Shown: piece by piece, positions 2,769-21,776 of the stretch
How the letters are laid out: each line of letters begins with the position of its first letter
Position numbering within the stretch: position 1 is the first letter of the stretch
DNA from: Candidatus Fermentibacterota bacterium
GTDB taxonomy: Bacteria > JAFGKV01
Direction of reading: 5' to 3'
Assembly: GCA_016928395.1 (NCBI GenBank)
Contig: JAFGKV010000045.1
Location: 1-34,141, forward strand
Length of the DNA stretch: 34,141 bases
Program-made: the position numbers and the translations under genes
The notes under the pieces: model-generated
Told to the model about the DNA's origin: nothing
Seen by the model: only the letters and a program-made list of their open reading frames with translations
Databases searched by the model: none

Positions 2769-3488
2769 TCAGGCAGACTCCGGAATCTGGACACGCGAAA
2801 GCACGAGGTCGGCGGCCTTCTTGAACGCGAAATGGAGCTGGCCCAGGCCTGCCTGGCCCTTGGCCACAGCGCCAAGGAGCAGCAACGGGCCAATGCTCCT
2901 GGCCGCGACCCACGCACCTTCGCCGCCCCAGTAAATCTGTTCCCAAGCCGTATCGGCGCCTTTCCATATCTTGACGCAGGTCCGAAGGGCGGCATACTCT
3001 GCGGTTCCCTCGGCGGGGGGTGCGGGCCACGCCGCCAGGATTCGGGCGTCCTTGTCCACCAACCATGCGACCTTGAGCGCAACTGCGGCCCCCGTCATGC
3101 AGCCGGTGAGGAGGTCTGCCAATGCCGCCTCATCGCCCAATTGCTCCCGCCAGCGCCGTTGGTGATCGGCCTCGGCCTTGGCTCGCTCATCCATGCGTCG
3201 AAGACCTTCCAGGAGAAGGTGCTGGACATCCTTCTTTATCGTGGTGACATCGCTCATTCTGCCCTTGTCAAAGCTGAACTTCCCTTCCACCCACTCCAGC
3301 AGGTCGTAGATCACCCCTTCCCCCTTGAGATCCCCAGCCTCTGCGTGAACAATCGTCCCATTATGGTAATACACCACGGCCTCGCGGTCTCCGTTGGAGA
3401 ACGCAAGTGAACCGGTGAGTCGCCCGATCAACGGTATCTGCAGTAGGTCGGGAACGCTGAGATCGCCCAGTGTGCCTTTCAACGACAT
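2769..3488 (-). CDS. PATAN (DUF4388) protein with C-terminal Roadblock-like domain
   Basis: 239-aa cytoplasmic signalling protein, last gene of the Mgl-type operon. The N-terminal ~90 residues read as a PATAN/DUF4388 domain (start MSLKGTLGDLSVPDLLQ, then SGSLAF-type strand, GTIVHAE and GKFSFDKG). A charged helix follows. The last ~110 residues have strand-helix-strand-strand-helix order (ALKVAWLVDKDARILAAW to LHFAFKKAADLVLSR) resembling a Roadblock/LC7 fold; this second domain is inference. I chose the ATG at 3488, preceded by GGAGGTGA at ideal spacing, over an upstream TTG at 3512 that overlaps the mglA stop and lacks a ribosome site. The gap to mglA is 16 nt, so the two are co-transcribed. 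PATAN domains often act as adaptors in two-component and GTPase circuits. Confidence 0.75.
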   Translation of the reverse strand: MSLKGTLGDLSVPDLLQIPLIGRLTGSLAFSNGDREAVVYYHNGTIVHAEAGDLKGEGVIYDLLEWVEGKFSFDKGRMSDVTTIKKDVQHLLLEGLRRMDERAKAEADHQRRWREQLGDEAALADLLTGCMTGAAVALKVAWLVDKDARILAAWPAPPAEGTAEYAALRTCVKIWKGADTAWEQIYWGGEGAWVAARSIGPLLLLGAVAKGQAGLGQLHFAFKKAADLVLSRVQIPESA

Positions 3489-3504
3489 GCCATCACCTCC
3501 CCCT

Positions 3505-4083
3505 TCACTCAAAACGAGAGAGGACTTCCTTCATAACCGTGCGGACGGTGTCCAGGACTCCGGCTCCCTGTGTAGCAACCGATGCAAACCTCGGCCAGGA
3601 ATCCGCCCTGAGATCGGCGTCGAGATCCTCGACCGTCAGGATTCCATCCATATCCCTCTTATTATACTGCAGTACCACTGGCACCGGGCCCGGCTGCAGC
3701 CCGTAGGAGGCCATGTTCTCCAGCATGCCACGGAGGCTCTCCACGTTGTCGGGCCTTCGCGACGCCTGCGAGTCAGCCACGAACACAACCCCGTCGGCTC
3801 CCGATAGCACAATCCGGCGACTCGCCTCGTAGTACACCTGACCAGGCACGGTGTAGAGATGGAACCTTGTCTTGAATCCCTGGATCTCTCCCAACTCCAG
3901 CGGGAAAAAATCAAAGAACAGAGTCCGCTCCTGCTCCGTATCAAGGGTGATCAACTGCCCCTTCCGGTCATCTGTGAGACGCGAGTACATGTAGACAAGA
4001 TTCGTAGTCTTCCCGCTCATACCGGGCCCATAGTATACGATCTTAAAGTTGATCTCCCGAGTCGCAAAGTTGATGGTTGACAC
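3505..4083 (-). CDS. mglA: MglA-family small Ras-like GTPase
   Basis: 192-aa bacterial small GTPase. The P-loop is GPGMSGKTT (residues 19-27). The switch II region is TVPGQ (78-82), where the usual DxxG aspartate is replaced as is characteristic of MglA. The base-recognition motif is NKRD (141-144). MglA switches between GTP and GDP states and sets cell polarity and motility in Myxococcus; its GTP hydrolysis is stimulated by the Roadblock protein MglB. The start is GTG at 4083, sharing a base with the TAG stop of the upstream Roadblock gene (TAGTG), which indicates translational coupling. No membrane segment or signal is present. Identity as a MglA-type GTPase is firm; the process it controls here is not shown by the sequence. 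Confidence 0.93.
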   Translation of the reverse strand: MSTINFATREINFKIVYYGPGMSGKTTNLVYMYSRLTDDRKGQLITLDTEQERTLFFDFFPLELGEIQGFKTRFHLYTVPGQVYYEASRRIVLSGADGVVFVADSQASRRPDNVESLRGMLENMASYGLQPGPVPVVLQYNKRDMDGILTVEDLDADLRADSWPRFASVATQGAGVLDTVRTVMKEVLSRFE

Positions 4084-4571
4084 TACTCGCTGAATATTCT
4101 GTCAATAAGGCTTGAGGCAAATTCCTTGAACTGCGCCACGATGAGTTCCTCACGATCTGTTCGCTCGCGAGACACGCTCATAAGCGCTGCGAGCCCATCT
4201 GCGGCACGCTTGGCGTGAAGACGCACGAGCCCGATACGCTGGGAGTCCTCGAACACCGCTATGAGCATGGCTGTACCGGCCACCAAAGAGATATGCACAT
4301 GCCGTGATGCGCCTTGCTGGAACAAGATGGAAAATTCCTTCTCACCGATGAGTGCGGCAACCTGTCTCGTTGCGGCAAATGAGCCCGCTACCAGGGTCGC
4401 AAGGGCCGTAATATTCAGAAAGGAGGTTGTGCCACGAGCCGAAATGGTGTGGCCGTCCTTGGTGATAAGTATGGCACACAGCGACCCACTCTTTTCTATC
4501 AACGTATCAAGAACATCTTCAATTCTCTCACGTTCATCAGACAACATGATAACTTTACTGAGAGGGCTCAT
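4083..4571 (-). CDS. Roadblock/LC7 domain protein, likely MglB-like GAP partner
   Basis: 162-aa protein with a Roadblock/LC7 core: a strand-rich region SGSLCAILITKDGHTISARG, a helix with ITALATLVAGSFAATRQVAALIG, then KEFSILFQQG and HVHISLVAGTAMLIAVFED before a helix ending near residue 135. Position directly upstream of mglA with a one-base overlap is the classic mglB-mglA arrangement, so a GTPase-activating role is a reasonable inference. The length is close to that of Myxococcus MglB (about 159 aa). The ATG start has a GGAGAAGG ribosome site. The C-terminal extension (REELIVAQFKEFASSLIDR) is a predicted helix. Confidence 0.82.
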   Translation of the reverse strand: MSPLSKVIMLSDERERIEDVLDTLIEKSGSLCAILITKDGHTISARGTTSFLNITALATLVAGSFAATRQVAALIGEKEFSILFQQGASRHVHISLVAGTAMLIAVFEDSQRIGLVRLHAKRAADGLAALMSVSRERTDREELIVAQFKEFASSLIDRIFSE

Positions 4572-4590: not shown

Positions 4591-5613
4591 TTACTTCATG
4601 ACTCTCTTGAGCAACTCGAATGCATCATCAATTCGGTTTTTCTGCAGCAGTATTGACACATCTGCCAGGCTATCCATGAGCGAAGTGTCTCCGTCCTCCG
4701 CGGCTTTGTCGATCCCCATATCCAGAAGCGATTGAACCGCGTCGCGCATCTCTCCAATGGTGCGGGCGGCCGCCAACGCCACCCTAAGCCGTTCTCGCAG
4801 CTCGCCGCCCGCCCGATGGGCTCTTGGCGCCTCCCCGGCAGAGGTCACCCGATCCGACCACGCATCGAGGAGCAGCAGTACATCCCGATCGACAGCGGTT
4901 TCCACGAAGCTGAACCAGCCATCCGCTATGTCCTGGGCATGCCCCAGAGGATCCTTGCACCGGACACCGGAGGCATAGGCGGCAATGGGCTCTCCATCAC
5001 GAATCCATACAGTGAGTTGCTCCGCGGAGCTGTCTACCGGCTCGATGACCAAGCGCCCACTGCGGCGCTCGGCCTCCAGCATCGGCAGGATGACCCTGAT
5101 GCCCCCGCCTGGCAACGCCCCACTCAGGGCAAAGTTGGATCGGGAGGCAACCCTCACTCCTGCCCCACACTCAAGGAAGGAGCATAGCGCCTCCTCATCG
5201 TCGTAGGAACATGACCAGGCGCGAAGCGAGCGAAGAAGTTCGCGATTCACGAAGTCCGAGCCCTCACCCACAACGCACATGACCGCGGACACGCACAATG
5301 GGGAGGAGCGAAAGCCCACAAGCCACTCGACCGGGACTTCACCCAGCACGGCGCTATCCACCAGCAGTCCGTCGGCGTAGTGTCCCGTGAGCCAGCACTG
5401 GGCCTGGGAGAGACTCGACAGCCCCATGACCTCCACCGGCATGCGCCCCGAGACTCGCCCCGCAAGGTGCTGGGTCTTCTCCGGGCCTACGACCGCCAAT
5501 CGAAGGCCGCGTGCCTCTCGTTGCCGGCCGCCCACCAAGCGAATGCCCGCAGAATCCGGCGAAGGGCGATCGTCATGCAAAGTCTGCTGGTCCGGCGACG
5601 CGGTCATGAGCAT
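4591..5613 (-). CDS. receiver-like plus PATAN domain signalling protein
   Basis: 340-aa protein without a close recognisable family match over its full length. After ~30 variable residues comes a segment resembling a degenerate response-regulator receiver (RLAVVGPEKT, then DGLLVDSAV). A PATAN/DUF4388-like domain follows (SGALPGGGIRVILPMLEAE, SGRLVIEP, GEPIAAYASG), and the C-terminus is helical (ADVSILLQKNRIDDAFELL). The start is uncertain: ATG at 5613 and ATG at 5607 are both downstream of AGGT, while an earlier TTG at 5640 has no ribosome site. It lies between two Roadblock genes in the same operon, 19 nt from the next gene, and is presumably an adaptor in the GTPase circuit. Domain calls are from pattern only. 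Confidence 0.6.
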   Translation of the reverse strand: MLMTASPDQQTLHDDRPSPDSAGIRLVGGRQREARGLRLAVVGPEKTQHLAGRVSGRMPVEVMGLSSLSQAQCWLTGHYADGLLVDSAVLGEVPVEWLVGFRSSPLCVSAVMCVVGEGSDFVNRELLRSLRAWSCSYDDEEALCSFLECGAGVRVASRSNFALSGALPGGGIRVILPMLEAERRSGRLVIEPVDSSAEQLTVWIRDGEPIAAYASGVRCKDPLGHAQDIADGWFSFVETAVDRDVLLLLDAWSDRVTSAGEAPRAHRAGGELRERLRVALAAARTIGEMRDAVQSLLDMGIDKAAEDGDTSLMDSLADVSILLQKNRIDDAFELLKRVMK

Positions 5614-5667
5614 ACCTGCCAACTCACCGGTACCGGCCAATGGCTACGCAGATCAACCGCCGCCTGA

Positions 5668-6018
5668 CTACAGCTCCGACGCCAACTGCTCGGCCGCCTT
5701 GCGAACGGCTATACGGATGGCGCCCAGATTTCCTCCGGTGGTGGCGGTGGCGGCCAGCATCGCTTGGTCACTCACGCCCTTCAAGAAAGCGACGCCCTGG
5801 TCAAATTCCATCATAGCCTGATTGAAGGCCCCCTGCTCCAAACCACTGCCCATCATCTCGGCGGTACCGAGCCCAGTAGAAATGATGGCGCCCACCGCTT
5901 CCACATCGACGCTCGAAGACGCGATGGCTTCTATCACAAACCCATCACGACTCACCAGAATTGCCGAGGTGATTCCCGGGGTCTTCCCCAATGTCTCCAA
6001 GGTGTCCTTCATTGCCAT
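5668..6018 (-). CDS. Roadblock/LC7 domain protein
   Basis: 116-aa stand-alone Roadblock/LC7 protein, first gene of the five-gene minus-strand operon. It shows the family pattern: ITSAILVSRDGFVIEAIAS, a helix with VDVEAVGAIISTGLGTAEMM, then MEFDQGVAFLKGV and QAMLAATATTGGNLGAIR before the final amphipathic helix. Its ~120-residue length is the typical minimal Roadblock unit; such proteins dimerise and act as GTPase regulators or scaffolds. The ATG at 6018 follows AAGGAGAA, and that ribosome site lies inside a perfect 8-bp inverted repeat (separate entry). Confidence 0.85.
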   Translation of the reverse strand: MAMKDTLETLGKTPGITSAILVSRDGFVIEAIASSSVDVEAVGAIISTGLGTAEMMGSGLEQGAFNQAMMEFDQGVAFLKGVSDQAMLAATATTGGNLGAIRIAVRKAAEQLASEL

Positions 6019-6024
6019 CCCAAA

Positions 6025-6043
6025 TTCTCCTTCCCAAGGAGAA
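6025..6043 (-). promoter_or_regulatory. perfect inverted repeat sequestering a ribosome binding site
   Basis: In the minus-strand transcript TTCTCCTT pairs with AAGGAGAA across a GGG loop (8-bp perfect stem). The right arm is the Shine-Dalgarno sequence of the Roadblock gene starting at 6018. The stem would block ribosome access unless opened, so translational control is possible. This could also be chance, because the arm is simply the complement of a ribosome site. Confidence 0.45.
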
Positions 6044-6272
6044 GGCCCTCAGCCTTCCCCGCAGACGTCCTCGCGTCACGGCACTCCTGTCCAATGCCGG
6101 CAGAAAGGCTTTCAGAAGCCAACAGCGCGGTCAGGACTGGCGTGCCATGACGGCGATCCGGGATGGCCAGCGGACAAGCCAACCCAGATACCCGTGAAAA
6201 CAAGAACAAAATACTCACGCGTGGGAGGGCAAGGCAAGGCAAACCGCAATCCCACGCACAGACACACGGAGC

Positions 6273-6302
6273 ATGGCCCGTGCCATTCCTGAGAGAGCTC
6301 AG
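6273..6302. promoter_or_regulatory. inverted repeats upstream of the sigma-54 promoter
   Basis: ATGGC/GCCAT with a 4-nt centre (6273-6286) and CTGAG/CTCAG with a 4-nt centre (6289-6302) lie about 45-70 bases before the -24 element. That is within the range where enhancer-binding proteins of sigma-54 promoters bind. Neither matches an activator site that I can name. Confidence 0.3.
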
Positions 6303-6344
6303 TGTGTTCGCGACGGTAATCCAGACCCTTGGTTCAGATGTCAA

Positions 6345-6360
6345 TGGCACAACAGTTGCA
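6345..6360 (+). promoter_or_regulatory. sigma-54 (-24/-12) promoter of the hydrogenase operon
   Basis: TGGCAC, five bases, TTGCA: an exact match to the sigma-54 consensus. The invariant GG (6346-6347) and GC (6358-6359) are 12 bases apart, as required. Expected transcription start is near 6371, leaving a leader of about 200 nt before the ATG at 6572. Several bacterial hydrogenase operons are sigma-54 dependent (for example hup/hox systems with HoxA/HupR-type activators), which supports the assignment. Confidence 0.85.
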
Positions 6361-6571
6361 GACTTCCTGCCACGAACAGCGCCATGACTCCACCATCGGC
6401 GTCTGAGTGCACCCAAAACACCGGCTCGTGGAATCGTAGCGGCGGGATGTTTGCCTCAGCCGTTCGCTGCGCTGCCTCCGCTCGGATGGACTGAATGCGT
6501 AGGGCATTTCCGAATGCCTGTATCGTTTTGAGACATACTTCTGGTTGTACGCCTGCTCAAGGAGGAAAACC

Positions 6572-7057
6572 ATGGCCGATGACAATGCTGCGATCCACCA
6601 GGTGTCACACTTTCTCGCCGCCCTCGCTCACGCCTGTGAGACAAACCTGGGCCGGAGCAGCCTGTCGCTCTCGGTTCTCGCCGGCAAGAAATTCGGCAGA
6701 GAGGCCGTGCAGGCTTCAGAGCAGACCACCGACCCGTTCAGGGCCGTGGAGATCCTGAGGGACGCCCTGACTGCCCGCGGCATCATGTGGGATTTCGCAC
6801 CCTTCGCGGGGGACAAGGGCACAGTCTTCGAGGAAGACGGAAAGAAGCGGATCCGGCTTGAGTTTCACACGTGCATGGTGCGCAACGCCCTGTTCAGGTA
6901 CGCTCATGACCAGAAACTGTCTCTCTGCTACATGTCCCATGGCGTGTTCGCCGGCGCCATGGAACGGGTCATGCCAAATACCACGGTCCATTTGGAGATC
7001 ATTCACGCTGGTCCCAATGCATGTCTGAAGGATCTGATCTGGGAGGATGCGTCATGA
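6572..7057 (+). CDS. V4R-like domain protein, first gene of hydrogenase operon
   Basis: 161-aa soluble protein that I do not match confidently to a named family. It resembles V4R-type (4-vinyl reductase) small-molecule-binding domains or ATC-hydrolase-like proteins. Cysteines C101 (in HTCMVRNA), C119 (LSLCYMSHG) and C151 (PNACLKDL) align in spacing with C183, C201 and C232 of the ferredoxin fusion three genes downstream, and the flanking residues also match (CxVR; AVEILRDAL versus AIQVVRDSL). The two therefore look like paralogous domains. The ATG at 6572 follows AAGGAGG with ideal spacing; an upstream TTG at 6545 has none. Its stop overlaps the hydrogenase small-subunit start (ATGA), indicating translational coupling. 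A sensing, assembly or electron-transfer accessory role is inferred from context only. Confidence 0.75.
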   Translation: MADDNAAIHQVSHFLAALAHACETNLGRSSLSLSVLAGKKFGREAVQASEQTTDPFRAVEILRDALTARGIMWDFAPFAGDKGTVFEEDGKKRIRLEFHTCMVRNALFRYAHDQKLSLCYMSHGVFAGAMERVMPNTTVHLEIIHAGPNACLKDLIWEDAS

Positions 7058-7977
7058 AGGTGACAATCTCCACAGAGTGGCTCTCCGGCTGCTCGGGATG
7101 CCATATCGCCCTGGTTGATCTCCACGAGAAGCTCCTTTCGCTTCTTGAAGAAGCGCAGATAGTCAGATCGCCCGTATTGATCGATGAGAAGGGGTATCCC
7201 CACGCCACGGTGGGCATTGTGGAAGGCGCCGTGCGGAGCGAGCATGACAAACATGCCCTGCTCAAGATGCGCGAGAGCGTCGACAAGCTGGTAGCATTCG
7301 GCACATGCGCCGTGTACGGCGGACCATCAGGCATAGGATGGCTGTATAGCCGGGATCAGGTGCTGGATGCGGCGTACGAGCAGGGGCCCACCAATGCGGG
7401 CGGCGAACGACCGGACGCGGAGGCCCCCGCTCTGGAGAACAGCGTCAGGCCCATCGATGAATACGTTGACGTCGACCTCTACCTCCCCGGGTGCCCGCCT
7501 CATCCGTTCTTCGTGGCGGCGGGGCTGAGGAAGCTGGCAGATGACTCCAGGCCGGGCTTGACCCATCGCTCCGTATGCGCCGATTGCGAGCGCAAGATGG
7601 AGAAACGGCAGGGGGTGCAGCTTCGTCCCGCGGCCGTCGCGGGAGACGATCCGGACCTCTGTTTTCTGTCGCAAGGGATCGTGTGTCTTGGATCAGTCAC
7701 GCTGAATCGTTGCATGGCACCGTGCCCCAAGATCGGCGTCGCATGCACCGGGTGTGCCGGTCCGGCGATAGACGTGCTGACCGATCCCCAAAGGGATCTC
7801 AGGAGTGAGCTAGCTTTACGCATGGAGAAACTATGCGGGATCCCCAGGAGCGAGATCATCGCCTATCTGGAGAAGAATGCCAACACCTTCTATGCCTATG
7901 CCATGAGCTCACCCGCTCTCTACAAGAAGCCGACGGTGGAGCTTCGAGAGTGGGCCGGTCCTTCGGCCGTAGCCTGA
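7054..7977 (+). CDS. [NiFe]-hydrogenase small subunit, group 3 (HoxY/MvhG-like)
   Basis: 307-aa electron-transfer subunit of a cytoplasmic [NiFe] hydrogenase. There is no Tat signal; the protein begins directly with the cluster-binding segment EWLSGCSGCHIALVDLHEK. C13, C16, C85 (FGTCAVYGG) and C147 (PGCPP) would bind the proximal [4Fe-4S] cluster. Eight further cysteines (C175, C178, C203, C211, C220, C224, C231, C234) suffice for two more clusters, as in F420/Mvh-type small subunits. An in-frame ATG at 7021 would overlap the previous gene by 37 nt. The ATG at 7054, with GGGAGGA in front and an ATGA overlap, is preferred. Subgroup 3c versus 3d cannot be settled by eye. Confidence 0.9.
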   Translation: MKVTISTEWLSGCSGCHIALVDLHEKLLSLLEEAQIVRSPVLIDEKGYPHATVGIVEGAVRSEHDKHALLKMRESVDKLVAFGTCAVYGGPSGIGWLYSRDQVLDAAYEQGPTNAGGERPDAEAPALENSVRPIDEYVDVDLYLPGCPPHPFFVAAGLRKLADDSRPGLTHRSVCADCERKMEKRQGVQLRPAAVAGDDPDLCFLSQGIVCLGSVTLNRCMAPCPKIGVACTGCAGPAIDVLTDPQRDLRSELALRMEKLCGIPRSEIIAYLEKNANTFYAYAMSSPALYKKPTVELREWAGPSAVA

Positions 7978-7994: not shown

Positions 7995-9386
7995 ATGTCT
8001 ACGACACTCACCATAGACCCAGTCACCAGGATAGAGGGTCATGCGAAGATACTCCTCGACCTCGACGACCAGGGTGTGGTCCAGCACGGCCACCTTCAGG
8101 TGCTGGAAATCCGGGGTTTCGAGAAGCTGCTGGAAAAGATGGAGTTGTTCCGGATGCCGCAAGTCACCGGGAGGATTTGCGGTGTCTGTCCTGCGGCCCA
8201 CCACCTGGCCTCGGTAGCGGCCATAGAGGCCGGACTGGGCGTCGAGATTCCTGAGGCCGCCGGGATGCTCCGTGAGCTCCTCTACGTAGGCCACATACTC
8301 CATTCTCACGCCTTGAGCACCTTCGTCTTGCTTGGCCCAGATGTTGTGCTGGGAATCGATTCCGACCCGGCCACACGGAATATCTTCGGGATTTTGAAGG
8401 CACATCCCGAGGTGGCGAAGAAGGCCCTCAAGCTGCGGAGCATCGGCCAGCGAACGGTCGAAGTGGTCGGCGGCCGCGGCGTTCATCCCGTCGCCGCCAT
8501 ACCCGGTGGCATGGCCGGCGTGCCTTCCGAGGAACAATGGTCCCAAATGGCCGAGTGGGGCCAGGAGGCGATGACGCTGGTGGCGGACCTTGCTGACGCT
8601 CTGAGAAGCAAGCTGAGTGCGCTCGACGATGCCGCCGCCGCGTCGATGCTGCCCTTCCACAGCCTCGCGCTGTCCCGCGGAGGAACCGTGGACTTCCTTC
8701 AAGGTGATATCGTGGTGGTCGATGAGAACGGTGGAGAAGAACGGCGATTCCCGCCGGCGGACTACGCTGCCCACCTTGTGGAGCATGTGATGCCGGGATC
8801 CTACATGAAGGCAGTCGCCCTGCGGGGAAGGCCCGAGAAGGACTATCTTGTAGGTCCATTGGCCCGTCTCAATGTGAATGCGCACTTTTCGACGCCCAAG
8901 GCCGATGCGCTGCTGCAGGAGTACCGGCAGCGCCTCGGCATCGCTCGATCCCCTCTCCCGTACATCGAAGCACGGCTGCTGGAGATGATGCACTGTGCCG
9001 AACGAATGATCGCCCTGACTTCAGGTCCACGGCCTACATCACCGCCTCGTATCAGCGTACAGCCCGCTGAAGGTCACTATGTGAGCGCCATTGAGGCGCC
9101 CAGAGGCCTTCTGGTGCACGACTATACTGCTGACAAGGACGGCAGAATCGTGCGTGCTAATCTCATCGTAGCCACGCAGAACAACTACCGCGCCATCGAT
9201 GCGAGTATCACCTCCCTGGCGCGTCACTTCAAACCTCAAGGCGACGAAGCGTTGAAGAACGGGATGGAGTTCGCCCTTCGCTGCTTCGATCCCTGCCTTG
9301 CCTGTGCCACCCACGCAGCGGGCCGCATGCCCCTGGAAATCGTGGAACGGCAGAACGGCGCCACGATTCGACTCATTAGGAGGTAA
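7995..9386 (+). CDS. [NiFe]-hydrogenase large (catalytic) subunit, group 3
   Basis: 463-aa catalytic subunit carrying the NiFe(CN)2CO centre. The N-terminal ligand motif is RICGVCPAAHH (R60, C62, C65) and the C-terminal one is DPCLACATH (C434, C437, H440). The opening TIDPVTRIEGHAKILLDLDD and IRGFEKLLE are typical of group 3 HoxH/MvhA/FrhA subunits. A 23-residue tail follows H440 and is expected to be removed after nickel insertion, fitting the protease gene downstream. The ATG at 7995 is 17 nt after the small subunit and preceded by GAGGAG. Such enzymes interconvert H2 with protons and electrons in the cytoplasm, normally with NAD(P), F420 or ferredoxin/heterodisulfide partners. No such partner subunit other than the adjacent ferredoxin is encoded here. 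Confidence 0.93.
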   Translation: MSTTLTIDPVTRIEGHAKILLDLDDQGVVQHGHLQVLEIRGFEKLLEKMELFRMPQVTGRICGVCPAAHHLASVAAIEAGLGVEIPEAAGMLRELLYVGHILHSHALSTFVLLGPDVVLGIDSDPATRNIFGILKAHPEVAKKALKLRSIGQRTVEVVGGRGVHPVAAIPGGMAGVPSEEQWSQMAEWGQEAMTLVADLADALRSKLSALDDAAAASMLPFHSLALSRGGTVDFLQGDIVVVDENGGEERRFPPADYAAHLVEHVMPGSYMKAVALRGRPEKDYLVGPLARLNVNAHFSTPKADALLQEYRQRLGIARSPLPYIEARLLEMMHCAERMIALTSGPRPTSPPRISVQPAEGHYVSAIEAPRGLLVHDYTADKDGRIVRANLIVATQNNYRAIDASITSLARHFKPQGDEALKNGMEFALRCFDPCLACATHAAGRMPLEIVERQNGATIRLIRR

Positions 9387-9390
9387 GGCC

Positions 9391-10113
9391 ATGGTGACCA
9401 TCAGGGTTGACGAGAAGGCATGCGTCGGCTGCGCGCTCTGTGTCGACGAATGCCCCACCGATGTCTTCACCTTCGATGAAAAGAAGCGCCTGCCGGTGGT
9501 GGAGAAGCCAGAGATGTGTTTCGGATGCCTGAGTTGCTCAAAGATCTGCCCGGCCGATGCCATCGAGCACGAAGGCATCAAGGTGAGCACGAACTTCTAC
9601 CACGATGCCTATGCACTCAACATGGCAGCCAAACTCGGCTTGGCCGAAGAACTGGAGACCGGTGTCACCAGTGAGGAAGCTGACCGAAAGCGAGCCGTCG
9701 ATGACCTAGGAATCAGGCTGCTGTCCATTGCCTCGGTGCTCAGGCAGACTTTAGGCAACGCACTTCCGGCCGTGGGAAGGATGGCCGGCACGACCTTGGC
9801 TGCCCAGCTTCCCCGCTACCAGATGCCGGCGTCGTTCGACGAGGCGATACAGGTCGTGCGCGATTCCCTCAATCCCGCATGGATCATCGGCGAAACGACG
9901 CGAAGCAATGAATCGCTGAAGCTCAAGGTCGAAGGGTGCTTTGTCCGCGACCTCTGCAAAAAAGAAGGCCTGGAACTCGGTGGGGATCTGTGTATCCTCT
10001 TCGGGACCTATCTGCTGGGGTACTTGGGCAAAGTGACCAAGTCGCGACTCAGGCTGATGAACACGGCGCAAGGCTGGAAGGAATGCACGTACGATCTCGA
10101 AGTCCACACCTGA
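9391..10113 (+). CDS. 2x[4Fe-4S] ferredoxin fused to V4R-like domain
   Basis: 240-aa two-part protein. Residues 1-60 are a bacterial-type ferredoxin with CVGCALCVDECP (C11, C14, C17, C21) and CFGCLSCSKICP (C43, C46, C49, C53), binding two [4Fe-4S] clusters. After a linker, residues ~105-236 look like a second copy of the protein encoded first in the operon: AIQVVRDSL, GCFVRDLC, LCILFGTYLLG and a last cysteine in KECTYDL, with spacings 18 and 31 between C183, C201 and C232 versus 18 and 32 there. The ATG at 9391 lies 4 nt after the large subunit, and its AGGAGGT sits within that gene's 3' end. It is probably the electron acceptor or donor of the hydrogenase; the role of the C-terminal domain is unknown. 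Confidence 0.85.
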   Translation: MVTIRVDEKACVGCALCVDECPTDVFTFDEKKRLPVVEKPEMCFGCLSCSKICPADAIEHEGIKVSTNFYHDAYALNMAAKLGLAEELETGVTSEEADRKRAVDDLGIRLLSIASVLRQTLGNALPAVGRMAGTTLAAQLPRYQMPASFDEAIQVVRDSLNPAWIIGETTRSNESLKLKVEGCFVRDLCKKEGLELGGDLCILFGTYLLGYLGKVTKSRLRLMNTAQGWKECTYDLEVHT

Positions 10114-10135: not shown

Positions 10136-10603
10136 GTGATCGCCAGCGCGGGCAATCGCCTTCTGGGCGATGACGGAGTGGGGCACGTAGTGCTCGAAAG
10201 CCTCCGCGCCCACTCCCCATGGGACGGGCGCGTGGGCTTTCTCCCATTGGAGGGAGACCTGTTCGAACTGGCCGACTGGGTTGAGAAGGCTGACCATCTC
10301 ATTATACTCGATGCCATCGCCGGCGAGCCGGTGGGACAGATCGACAGGACTGCGAGGCAACTGAGGCCCCAGGCCCCCTCGTTTCACCAGACCGACGTCG
10401 CCACGGTCTTGTGGCACCTCGAGGCGGTCCTTGGGATTGAAAAGGTCGCCCTCTGGGAAATCTGGGGCATACGCATCGCCATGCCCACGCGCTTCTCCGA
10501 GCATCTTAGCCCATTCGTGGCACAGGCTGCGGTTCATCTGGAGCACATAGTGACTGCACGGGTGCATCAGATCCTCGATGCCCACACAGCCACCTCCGAC
10601 TGA
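10136..10603 (+). CDS. hydrogenase maturation endopeptidase (HycI/HyaD family)
   Basis: 155-aa protease that removes the C-terminal peptide of the hydrogenase large subunit after nickel incorporation. It has the family opening GNRLLGDDGVG, whose aspartate/glutamate-type residues sense nickel. Further matches are HLIILDAIAGEPVG (equivalent of the conserved ILDA segment with a metal-binding aspartate) and PSFHQTDVATVL (the conserved histidine segment). The start is GTG at 10136, the only start codon in the frame near the motif, 22 nt after the ferredoxin gene and with a weak ribosome site (AAGG). The N-terminus is a few residues shorter than usual before the GN motif. Its presence supports proteolytic processing of the adjacent large subunit. 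Confidence 0.85.
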   Translation: MIASAGNRLLGDDGVGHVVLESLRAHSPWDGRVGFLPLEGDLFELADWVEKADHLIILDAIAGEPVGQIDRTARQLRPQAPSFHQTDVATVLWHLEAVLGIEKVALWEIWGIRIAMPTRFSEHLSPFVAQAAVHLEHIVTARVHQILDAHTATSD

Positions 10604-10720: not shown

Positions 10721-12649
10721 ATGAGACAGAAGCTCAAGCTAAAAGAGCAGACAGCTCTCAAGCGCTGGTCGGTGGACCAGGCTCGAGAGCTGTACGGGTT
10801 GCAGAGCTGGGGCAAAGGATTCTTCGACATCAATGGACGCGGCAACCTCATCGTGCGTCCTCACAAGAGCCCAGACTGCTACCTTGACATCAAGGAACTC
10901 GTCGACGAGCTGCGTATGCGAGATATCACGCCGCCTATACTCCTGCGCTTCACCGACATCCTCAGACAGCGGATTGAGGAGATTCAGGCATCGTTTCAGC
11001 ACGCCATCGACGAGTACGGCTACAAAGGCGCGTACATCGGCGTGTATCCGGTAAAAGTGAATCAGAGCAAGGAGGTCGTCGAAGACATCATTGAGTTTGG
11101 CAAGCCCTACGGCTTCGGCCTGGAGGCTGGCAGCAAGCCCGAGTTGCTCATCGCCGTCGCGTCGCTGGACACCCCGGGGGCACCCATCGTGTGTAACGGC
11201 TACAAGGATGCCGAGTTCGTGGAAATCGCGTTGTGGGCCCAGAAACTGGGCAGGACGGCAATCGTCGTGGTCGAAAAGCCGTCGGAGCTCGACATCGTGG
11301 TTCGCGTGGCCCACCGGCTCAAAGTACGGCCAGTTATCGGGATCCGGGCCAAGCTGGCTGCCAGGGGAAGGGGAAAGTGGGAGAGTTCGGGCGGTGATCG
11401 CTCCAAGTTCGGCCTGTTCCCTTCGGAAATCCTTGACGCCATCCAAAAGCTGGAGCGAATCGGCATGCTGGACTGCCTCCAGCTCCTGCACTTTCACCTC
11501 GGATCCCAGATCACGGCCATCCAGAGCATCAAAGATGCCCTACGGGAGAGCACGCGGCTGTTCGCCGAGATGGTCCGCCTCGGCGCGAACATCCGATACT
11601 TCGATGTGGGCGGCGGCCTGGCGGTAGACTATGACGGGAGCATGACCAACTTCTCATCCAGCGCCAACTACACACTGCAGGAATATGCCGCGGACGTGGT
11701 ATCTGCCATTGCCGAAACCTGCGCGGAACATGAGATCCCGCATCCGATCATCATAAGCGAGAGCGGCCGTGCCCTGGTCGCCTATCATTCGGCCTTGGTG
11801 TTCAATGTCCTGGGAACAAGCGAATTCAGCACGGCCACCGCGATACCGGAAATGCCTGCCGATGCGCCCGAGCCCGTGACAACGCTCCTGGAGATTCTGC
11901 AGAAGCTGTCGGTCAAGAACTTTCAGGAATCGTATCATGATGCGATTCAGGCACGAGATGAGGTACTCACACTCTTCAATGTCGGATTGCTGACCCTGGA
12001 AGCCCGTGCCACGGCGGAGCGCCTGTTCTGGCTCATTTGCTTCGGCATAGCCAAAGTCGTCAGAGGATTGGACTATGTGCCCGACGAGTTGGAACACCTG
12101 GACTCCTTCGTTTCGGATACCTACTACGGCAACCTCTCGGTCTTCCAGAGCCTCCCGGATCACTGGGCCGTCAAGCAGCTCTTCCCCATCGTACCCATTC
12201 ACCGCCACCAGGAGCGGCCGACGCGCAAGGCGACCTTTGCCGACATTACCTGCGATTCCGACGGAAAGATCGACCAGTTCATCGACCTTCGCGATGTGCG
12301 CAACACCATTGACCTGCATGAATTGCGGCGAGACCCCTACTACATCGGTGTATTTCTGGTGGGCGCCTATCAGGAGGTCTTGGGGGATCTCCACAATCTT
12401 TTTGGCGACACTCATACCGTGCACGTGAGCATCACGGGGAAGAACACCTATCGCATCGACAAGATCGTGGAAGGCGACAGCGTGCGTGATGCCTTGGCCT
12501 ATATGCAGTATCAGAAGCGCGACATGATGACCATGTTCCGGCGATCCATCGAGGAGAGTATCGAGCGCAAGAGGATCACGATCAAAGAGAGCGCCCGGAT
12601 CCAGAAATTTCTGGAGGATGGGCTCGAAGGCTACACCTATCTGGAGTAG
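10721..12649 (+). CDS. speA: biosynthetic arginine decarboxylase
   Basis: 642-aa PLP enzyme converting arginine to agmatine plus CO2, the first step of the agmatine route to putrescine and spermidine. It is full length for SpeA (about 630-660 aa). The PLP lysine lies in GVYPVKVNQ (K112). Further family segments are GLEAGSKPELL, HFHLGSQI, YFDVGGGLAVDYDGS and PIIISESGRALVA. The C-terminal part (DITCDSDGKIDQFID, VGAYQEVLGDLHNLFGDTH) includes the conserved cysteine region that completes the active site across the dimer. The ATG follows a GAGG ribosome site. No agmatine ureohydrolase or other polyamine gene is adjacent. Its last 68 bases overlap the convergent psuG gene. Confidence 0.96.
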   Translation: MRQKLKLKEQTALKRWSVDQARELYGLQSWGKGFFDINGRGNLIVRPHKSPDCYLDIKELVDELRMRDITPPILLRFTDILRQRIEEIQASFQHAIDEYGYKGAYIGVYPVKVNQSKEVVEDIIEFGKPYGFGLEAGSKPELLIAVASLDTPGAPIVCNGYKDAEFVEIALWAQKLGRTAIVVVEKPSELDIVVRVAHRLKVRPVIGIRAKLAARGRGKWESSGGDRSKFGLFPSEILDAIQKLERIGMLDCLQLLHFHLGSQITAIQSIKDALRESTRLFAEMVRLGANIRYFDVGGGLAVDYDGSMTNFSSSANYTLQEYAADVVSAIAETCAEHEIPHPIIISESGRALVAYHSALVFNVLGTSEFSTATAIPEMPADAPEPVTTLLEILQKLSVKNFQESYHDAIQARDEVLTLFNVGLLTLEARATAERLFWLICFGIAKVVRGLDYVPDELEHLDSFVSDTYYGNLSVFQSLPDHWAVKQLFPIVPIHRHQERPTRKATFADITCDSDGKIDQFIDLRDVRNTIDLHELRRDPYYIGVFLVGAYQEVLGDLHNLFGDTHTVHVSITGKNTYRIDKIVEGDSVRDALAYMQYQKRDMMTMFRRSIEESIERKRITIKESARIQKFLEDGLEGYTYLE

Positions 12650-13562
12650 GTGTCCGCGTCCCAATCAGGAGGCCGACGCGGGCCGCGAGGCGCGCATTGC
12701 TCACAAGAAGGCCCCGGTTCAGTTCCACCGATCGCGGTCCCAGACGCTCCTGTACGGCAGCAAGGTGGGCAGGCGTGGTTGACGGCCCGTGAGACGGGGT
12801 CTCCAGCGCGAAGCGAACCGCCTCTTCCACCGTGTGCCGGTCGTATGCCATTTCGGCCGGGGGCGGGTTCAAGAGCAGCACCGCTGCTGGGCTACCCGCG
12901 GCGCGGGCCGCATGCCAGACGGACGTGACCTCCTCAGGGGAATCGACCCGGTGTTCCAATGAGAGACCGGTAGAACATGTGTAGAACGCGGGGACTTCGG
13001 AGGTCCTATAGCCCAGCACTATCACGCCCAGCGTCTCCAAAACCTCCATGGTCGCCGCCATGTCCAGCAGTGATTTCGCCCCCGAACAGACCACTACCAT
13101 GGGCAATCGCGCCAGGCACCCAAGGTCTCCCGAGATATCCCATCCCCCGCCCCGGTGCACACCGCCGATCCCGCCGGTGGCAAGGGTAAGGACGCCGCGA
13201 TGGTGCGCCAGCAGCATGGCTGCCCCTGCGGTGGTGGCGGCCCACCGGCCCAAAGCTATGGCGCCGGGGAGAGTTGCGGGAGTCACTTTGTCGGGCTTTG
13301 CAGCAATAAGCCTCTTCAGGTCACCTGTTGACACGCCGACTGTGGGCTTCCCTCCCAGCACGGCGCATGCGGCCGGCTCGGCGCCTTCCTCCCGGATTGC
13401 CCGGGCCATATCCTCGAAGCAAGGCACCGCCTGATCGGGAGGAAGGCCGTGGGTGAAGACCACCGTCTCCAGACCGACAACGGCCTCCCGGTGCACCGCT
13501 CTGTGACCTGCATCGAGCCTTTGTGCGCGGGGATCCAGCGTGAGCTGTTGCGATTCGCTCAT
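12582..13562 (-). CDS. psuG: pseudouridine-5'-phosphate glycosidase
   Basis: 326-aa enzyme of the PsuG/IndA family that reversibly splits pseudouridine 5'-phosphate into uracil and ribose 5-phosphate. Diagnostic segments are GLETVVFTHGLP near residue 30, GKPTVGVS, TLATGGIGGVHRG (127-138) and the catalytic lysine in CSGAKSLLDM (K163). The recognisable family sequence ends near residue 302 (NARLAARVGLLIGT). The last ~24 residues are a tail encoded wholly within the antisense 3' end of speA, giving a convergent overlap of 68 bp. No pseudouridine kinase gene (psuK) is adjacent. The ATG at 13562 has a poor ribosome site. Confidence 0.92.
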   Translation of the reverse strand: MSESQQLTLDPRAQRLDAGHRAVHREAVVGLETVVFTHGLPPDQAVPCFEDMARAIREEGAEPAACAVLGGKPTVGVSTGDLKRLIAAKPDKVTPATLPGAIALGRWAATTAGAAMLLAHHRGVLTLATGGIGGVHRGGGWDISGDLGCLARLPMVVVCSGAKSLLDMAATMEVLETLGVIVLGYRTSEVPAFYTCSTGLSLEHRVDSPEEVTSVWHAARAAGSPAAVLLLNPPPAEMAYDRHTVEEAVRFALETPSHGPSTTPAHLAAVQERLGPRSVELNRGLLVSNARLAARVGLLIGTRTPTPDRCSLRAHPPEISGSGRSL

Positions 13563-21721: not shown

Positions 21722-21776
21722 GGAATGGTGGAATGGTGGAACGATGGATGATTGGATGGAATGGTGGAATGATGGG
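21722..21776. repeat. GGAATGGT-type minisatellite-like repeat
   Basis: Degenerate repeats of GGAATGGT/GGAATGAT begin with GGAATGGTGGAATGGTGGAA and run for about 55 bases. A shorter run of the complementary sense (CATTCCATCAACATCATTCC) lies at 21842-21861, so the two could pair. Purine-rich strand bias is marked compared with the surroundings. Confidence 0.6.

Follow-up and report, generated by a model that had tools for sequence, protein, structure and literature searches.

A probable pair of outward-facing sigma-54 promoters between a [NiFe] hydrogenase operon and a small-GTPase operon in a Candidatus Fermentibacterota bacterium

Upstream of a [NiFe] hydrogenase operon in a Candidatus Fermentibacterota bacterium lies a short sequence that resembles the −24/−12 element of sigma-54 promoters. 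Does this sequence act as a promoter, and if so, which genes does it switch on? The question was addressed in a stretch of 34,141 nucleotides (the window, which denotes the whole stretch of DNA analysed here) and by comparison with related genomes. The call of a promoter is probably correct, with comparative support now added, and the site belongs to a conserved pair, whose other member faces a divergent operon encoding a Ras-type GTPase and its likely partners.

The putative −24/−12 elements of the intergenic spacer

A string match places TGGCACAACAGTTGCA exactly at positions 6345–6360 of the plus strand. Its GG (6346–6347) and GC (6358–6359) stand at the sigma-54 spacing, the expected transcription start is 6371, and 211 nt separate the site from the ATG at 6572 of the first hydrogenase-operon gene. 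The original prediction of a correctly spaced sigma-54 element about 210 nt before this gene is thus borne out. Its description as an exact consensus holds for the core TGGCAC-N5-TTGCA, which is matched at every base, but not for the longer consensus TGGCACG-N4-TTGCW quoted in PMC2725144, from which the site departs by an A for G at position 7. A second sigma-54-type site, absent from that prediction, is located on the opposite strand at 6285–6270 (TGGCACGGGCCATGCT, with A for T at −15; predicted start 6259). It points outward to the divergent roadblock/small-GTPase/DUF4388 operon, the first gene of which (roadblock) begins at 6018. The −24 GG elements of the two sites are 62 bp apart, and each site carries 11 of the 12 informative bases of the longer consensus, with GG and GC at the fixed distance.

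Every position of the window was scored over 16 positions against TGGCACG-N4-TTGCW, with weights set by hand from the consensus. Only these two sites exceed 0.9 (plus site, 0.95; minus site, 0.93). The window holds two sites of at least 0.925 against 0.075 per shuffled window (~0.08; 40 first-order Markov shuffles), and 60 further shuffles, amounting to 4.1 million strand positions, yielded five. Both top sites fall within one 553-nt spacer (6019–6571), in which about 0.0013 such sites would be expected. A third, overlapping site on the minus strand at 6372 scores 0.87, and nothing of at least 0.80 is found at its place in the sister genome. With up to two mismatches to the motif allowed, the window shows no excess (8 matches vs. 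10.17 expected).

Three genomes of the phylum were compared: the one containing the window, one other of the same genus (the sister genome, G001) and one of the same family (G002). The sister genome shares the divergent gene order, and in an in-register alignment the 30-nt blocks around the two sites are 63% identical each, against 16–32% in three blocks outside them. The counterparts of the pair, CGGCACGGCGGTTGCA on the plus strand and CGGCACGGGCCATGCT on the minus strand, both carry C in place of the leading T and are the best two sites of the whole 14-kb stretch (0.92 and 0.85); their orientation is kept, and so is their start-to-start distance of 60. Position and orientation upstream of the gene are therefore conserved between species, in two genomes. 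The minus site is identical at 15 of 16 positions and the plus site at 12 of 16. Shifted by one base from the minus site, the 16-mer at 6269–6284 is preserved at 16/16, a value reached by 0 of 200 shuffles of the sister spacer. The best 16-mer of the plus site is preserved at 14/16, and because this value on its own was reached in 26 of 200 shuffles, the case for the plus site rests on its register with the minus site and on its pattern of change, in which GGCAC and GTTGCA are kept and three of the four bases between them have changed. The family-level relative has rpoN and no match to the first gene of the hydrogenase operon.

The motif string by itself is weak evidence, since TGGCAC-N5-TTGCW occurs four times in the whole 4.79-Mb genome against three times for the reversed control; the case is carried by position, orientation and conservation. 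One mismatch to TGGCACG-N4-TTGCW gives 36 matches vs. 47 for the reversed pattern, without genome-wide enrichment, and motif counts at or below the reversed control were rejected as evidence. The placement of the sites is more informative. Among those with loci returned (30 of 36 sigma-54 matches and 30 of 47 control matches), 16/30 sites with at most one mismatch are intergenic, compared with 4/30 for the reversed pattern, and 13/30 vs. 2/30 are followed within 350 nt by a gene in the same orientation (Fisher p 0.001). This promoter-like placement holds when the two sites of the window are left out (11/28, p 0.003). On another contig (C227), a Metal_resist gene begins 79 nt after one exact site. 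Nine other genes behind such sites encode an FMN reductase, ankyrin repeats, NusA, a TonB receptor, an M16 peptidase, a radical SAM protein, one weak carboxypeptidase-regulatory match and two proteins without match. Because these downstream genes are so mixed, some of the genome-wide sites may be due to chance. The stretch around hypD contains no sigma-54 site above 0.79.

The locus with the Metal_resist gene (L154, C227 6878–10658) deserves mention in its own right. The exact sigma-54 site and the heavy-metal-resistance-type gene are followed there by a 562-aa ORF and then by the gene of a receiver-AAA activator, a gene order that looks like that of ZraP-ZraSR.

The genes of the two operons and their relatives

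The plus-strand operon opens with a gene for a 161-aa protein (6572–7057), for which a V4R/Bet3 (TRAPPC3)-like fold is predicted. The fold search gave 13 PDB matches with E <= 0.001 (TRAPP Bet3/TPC6 chains, the MopR sensor domain and BcsD), with TM-scores of only 0.42–0.60 and a model pLDDT of 79. The protein has no Pfam match over the cut-off, and its family matches Pfam V4R weakly (best E 0.06, 9 of 14 members). Profile matches identify the next two genes as the small (VhuG-like, 7054–7977) and large (VhuA/MvhA-like, 7995–9386) subunits of a [NiFe] hydrogenase. The best NCBIfam matches of both are to Mvh/Vhu (group 3c), and the PDB search with the large subunit likewise ranks Mvh-type chains near the top. 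By sequence, the enzyme most resembles Mvh/Vhu as its closest relative, at scores far below the curated group 3c cut-offs (304.9 of 800; 209.7 of 450). No heterodisulfide reductase was recognised among the ten proteins scanned.

The following gene (9391–10113; the profile searches used start 9385) encodes a 4Fe-4S dicluster ferredoxin by profile match. The mean pLDDT of its model is 58.9, so that the C-terminal half alone is usable; the fold matches of this half include H-NOX and designed proteins besides MopR, Bet3 and BcsD, and it may adopt a V4R/Bet3-like fold. Its alignment with the 161-aa protein is weak (19% identity, E 0.018). The last gene (10136–10603) encodes a HycI-like hydrogenase maturation protease, whose 22.4 bits narrowly miss the cut-off of 23 bits. 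The hydrogenase operon would thus hold two predicted V4R/Bet3 (TRAPPC3)-like folds, one standing alone and one fused to a ferredoxin (in a low-confidence model), adjoining the genes of a Ras-like GTPase and roadblock proteins.

The divergent operon is read on the minus strand. Its first gene (5668–6018) encodes a roadblock/LC7 protein (47.3 bits, cut-off 23) that is 95% identical in the sister genome. This is followed by a DUF4388-like protein (4591–5640, start possibly 5613; 21.2 bits, below the cut-off of 25), an MglB-like roadblock/LC7 protein (4083–4571; 23 bits, at the cut-off, and 76.1 bits with the MglB model, whose cut-off is 200), a small Ras-type GTPase (3505–4083; Pfam Arf 23.7 bits, cut-off 22.3) and a DUF4388 protein assigned by profile match (2769–3512, start possibly 3488). 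The GTPase may be of the MglA type, judging from its MglB-like neighbour. On the same strand, about 390 nt beyond this operon, a metallo-beta-lactamase-fold protein with two rhodanese matches is encoded at 951–2378.

Genes were called by a home-made codon-usage caller trained on the window, which missed the gene at 12582–13562 and overlooks others in Fermentibacterota loci of high AT content. At 12582–12649, an arginine decarboxylase gene (plus strand) and an Indigoidine_A-family gene (minus strand) converge and share 68 nt at their 3′ ends, compared with an overlap of 13 nt in the sister genome.

A homologue of the 161-aa protein (61–70% identical) was found in 12 Fermentibacterota loci. Homologues of nine of the ten two-operon genes occur in Fermentibacterota, with 35–70% identity in the best matches; the protein of 4591–5640 has no BLAST match in these loci. 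In seven of the 12 (L057 and L061–L066), genes for roadblock, MglB-like, GTPase and DUF4388 proteins, a larger gene and that of the 161-aa protein are all co-directional, and the hydrogenase genes come next wherever the contig extends far enough and the gene caller performs well. The larger gene occupies the place expected for the 4591–5640 protein, with no BLAST link between them. Of the others, L055 has MglB-like and GTPase genes and then the 161-aa gene, L056 and L060 begin near a contig edge, and in L058 and L059 different genes precede that of the 161-aa protein.

The good sigma-54 sites do not accompany this arrangement. In the stretch in front of the 161-aa homologue, covered over at most 700 nt, 11 of the 12 loci have no site of at least 0.78 and L058 has one of 0.78; upstream of the homologous run, six of the seven loci lack a site of at least 0.70 and L063 has one of 0.73. 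These loci lack good sites even though rpoN is present in all 12 genomes; by contrast, the window has divergent halves with twin sites. The genes of the two operons thus belong together, and in this sample only the lineage of the window has them split, with a sigma-54 site facing each half. In five of the seven loci (L062–L066), the sequence CTGGACAAT-N-GTCT followed by an AT-rich stretch lies about 107–112 nt before the roadblock gene. This element, which is absent from L057 and L061, is perhaps another promoter or operator.

A proposed common switch and its alternatives

The preferred reading, to which a probability of about 0.8 is given, is that the spacer at 6019–6571 carries two outward-facing sigma-54 promoters that co-induce the hydrogenase and GTPase modules through an activator encoded elsewhere. 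The plus promoter (6345–6360) would serve the V4R-like gene, the Mvh/Vhu-like [NiFe] hydrogenase, the ferredoxin and the maturation protease, and the minus promoter (6285–6270) the roadblock, small-GTPase and DUF4388 operon. Sigma-54 holoenzyme would rest in the closed state at both sites until an ATP-hydrolysing enhancer-binding activator, encoded elsewhere, opened both, and hydrogenase and GTPase module would thus be switched on together. The use of both sites as promoters and the sharing of one activator are inferences. Due to the distance of only 62 bp between the −24 elements, which leaves scant room between two holoenzymes, the enhancer is likely to lie outside the promoter pair.

The genome provides for such a mechanism. 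The original prediction implied rpoN, which is present in the genome of the window (contig C243, E 5.1e-59) and was not found in the sister assembly, which is 82% complete. Of 16 matches to PF00158, 13 are strong sigma-54 activators, nine with an exact GAFTGA loop and four with a one-residue variant (GSFTGA or GAFTDA). None is encoded in the window, as all 16 matches sit on other contigs. Domain and NCBIfam scans covered ten of the 13 activators, and in seven of these ten a receiver domain precedes the AAA domain.

The closest architecture among known systems is that of the E. coli hyc/hyp region, in which two outward-facing −24/−12 elements serve hydrogenase-related operons, those of the FhlA-activated formate hydrogenlyase and of its maturation genes. 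The same scorer gives 0.95 on the hypA side and 0.88 on the hycA side, and elsewhere in the 11-kb E. coli stretch 0.88 inside hycA and 0.86 at 2031. An RpoN holoenzyme peak has been reported in vitro in this spacer (PMC8743547). The two systems differ in three respects: in E. coli, fhlA directly follows hypE, whereas the window has no activator; the partner operon consists of maturation genes instead of a GTPase/roadblock module; and the enzyme is hydrogenase 3, whereas that of the window is Mvh/Vhu-like. An FhlA orthologue was not recognised among the ten activators scanned out of 13, which score at most 307.2 with the formate hydrogenlyase activator model (cut-off 830).

A narrower reading would grant promoter function to the plus site only, with the minus site being a conserved operator or a chance resemblance and the GTPase operon having another promoter. 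The A for T at −15, the lower score of the minus site in the sister genome (0.85) and the partly self-complementary nature of its core GCATGGCCCGTGC, where one-mismatch dyads occur, would fit this. We nevertheless hold it to be unlikely, for the minus site has changed less than the plus site between the two genomes, is aimed at the divergent operon, lies at an equal distance from the plus site in both and shares its ATGCT ending with E. coli hyc. It is very improbable that a regulator acting with the main sigma factor uses both conserved islands as its operators, which would then resemble −24/−12 elements incidentally. Genome-wide motif counts at control level and the failure to find rpoN in the sister assembly speak in favour of this reading, and are outweighed by two outward-facing sites with exact GG/GC spacing and by the way in which the halves of the plus site hold while the bases between them vary. 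No sigma-70-like promoter was found in the spacer either (0 in 5900–6700), which says little given that only 0.1 is expected.

A third alternative concerns the activator, and places the promoters under a hydrogen-sensing system of the HoxA type, as in Cupriavidus necator. The plasmid pHG1 of this organism likewise combines a [NiFe] hydrogenase with an activator annotated as a sigma-54 dependent regulator, which we take to be HoxA by its position. Receiver-before-AAA is the layout of HoxA-type regulators, and it is shared by the seven activators described above. The pHG1 cluster, unlike the window, also includes the activator gene, a regulatory hydrogenase and an ATP-binding gene, presumably that of a kinase, and the enzyme of the HoxA system is membrane-bound, whereas that of the window is most like Mvh/Vhu. 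All 13 activators are 33–47% identical to the pHG1 activator, with no standout, and no sensor hydrogenase was recognised; one further PF00374 match (48.6 bits) sits on contig C240. The original suggestion of a HoxA/HupR-like activator thus found no candidate, either in the window or as a HoxA orthologue standing out among the 13, and a HoxA-type system is regarded as quite improbable. HupR of Rhodobacter capsulatus is the response-regulator activator of a hydrogenase. It has been reported to be sigma-70-dependent and to have a changed GAFTGA (PMC3162934), and is for the former reason a poor precedent; the 13 activators, by contrast, have GAFTGA (nine) or a one-residue variant (four). The comparison with HoxA and HupR is therefore weak. 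The PF00374 match on C240 (12501–12707) may in itself belong to a complex I subunit or a second hydrogenase.

For the twin-promoter reading, a candidate enhancer is offered by a dyad in the leader of the hydrogenase operon, GAATGC-N5-GCATTT at 6493–6509, which lies inside the conserved island 6487–6512 and is perfect in the sister genome. It is located at about −234 to −250 from the minus start and +123 to +139 from the plus start, and could act on both promoters. Among predicted enhancer sites of Clostridiales, most lie 100–250 bp upstream (PMC6615313). The best match of the island to the sister genome is 14/16, which on its own was reached in 26 of 200 shuffles. Alternatively, the region at 6493–6519 could be an attenuator or a repressor operator of the hydrogenase operon. 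The conservation of an island in the leader and a terminator-like hairpin with a T-rich tail (6502–6519, plus strand) are compatible with such a role, which is rather doubtful given the same shuffle result, the loss of the hairpin stem in the sister genome, where the 6493–6509 dyad alone is kept, and a count of such hairpins that is not above chance (1 found, 0.5 expected).

Within the island 6487–6519, the dyad overlaps the hairpin, and the two structures would be mutually exclusive in RNA. The folding of the leader RNA was discarded as a lead, as the structures differ between the two genomes, and one Rfam match in the spacer, far below the gathering score, was not credible. GAATGC-N5-GCATTY was also rejected as a genome-wide regulon motif. 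Its strand matches number 60, against 3 for the reversed form; of the 20 loci examined, a subset of all matches, 16 lie inside genes and four between genes, and among these four only that of the window has a good sigma-54 site nearby. Because of this distribution, the excess looks like word composition.

A GTPase module possibly tied to hydrogen metabolism

Sigma-54 control of Ni,Fe-hydrogenases has been reported for Proteobacteria (PMC12316311). Its signature now appears in a poorly sampled lineage, where it accompanies an enzyme of another class and takes the form of two divergent, conserved sites. The interesting part is that this pair ties a hydrogenase to a bacterial Ras-like GTPase module. 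Together with the co-directional run in Fermentibacterota, it provides a testable reason to suspect that small GTPases act on hydrogen metabolism. A more far-reaching and tentative proposal, held to be possible and somewhat against the odds, is that of a single functional system, in which the Ras-like GTPase (MglA type) and its pair of roadblock partners, together with both DUF4388-type proteins and both V4R/Bet3-fold proteins (the ferredoxin-fused one included), would control or localise a cytoplasmic [NiFe] hydrogenase. Here, a single enhancer in the leader of the hydrogenase operon would fire both sigma-54 promoters and so keep the two halves of the system in step, as a rewired form of the single Fermentibacterota run. 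No paper combined three of the four subjects hydrogenase, roadblock, MglA and DUF4388, and no description of a hydrogenase-roadblock-GTPase gene cluster was found among the best-matching literature titles, a search that mostly left subscription journals outside its scope.

Short tandem repeats are present elsewhere in the window: a 15-nt unit is repeated twice at 17–46, and a GGAATGGT-like unit occurs about six times at 21722–21775.
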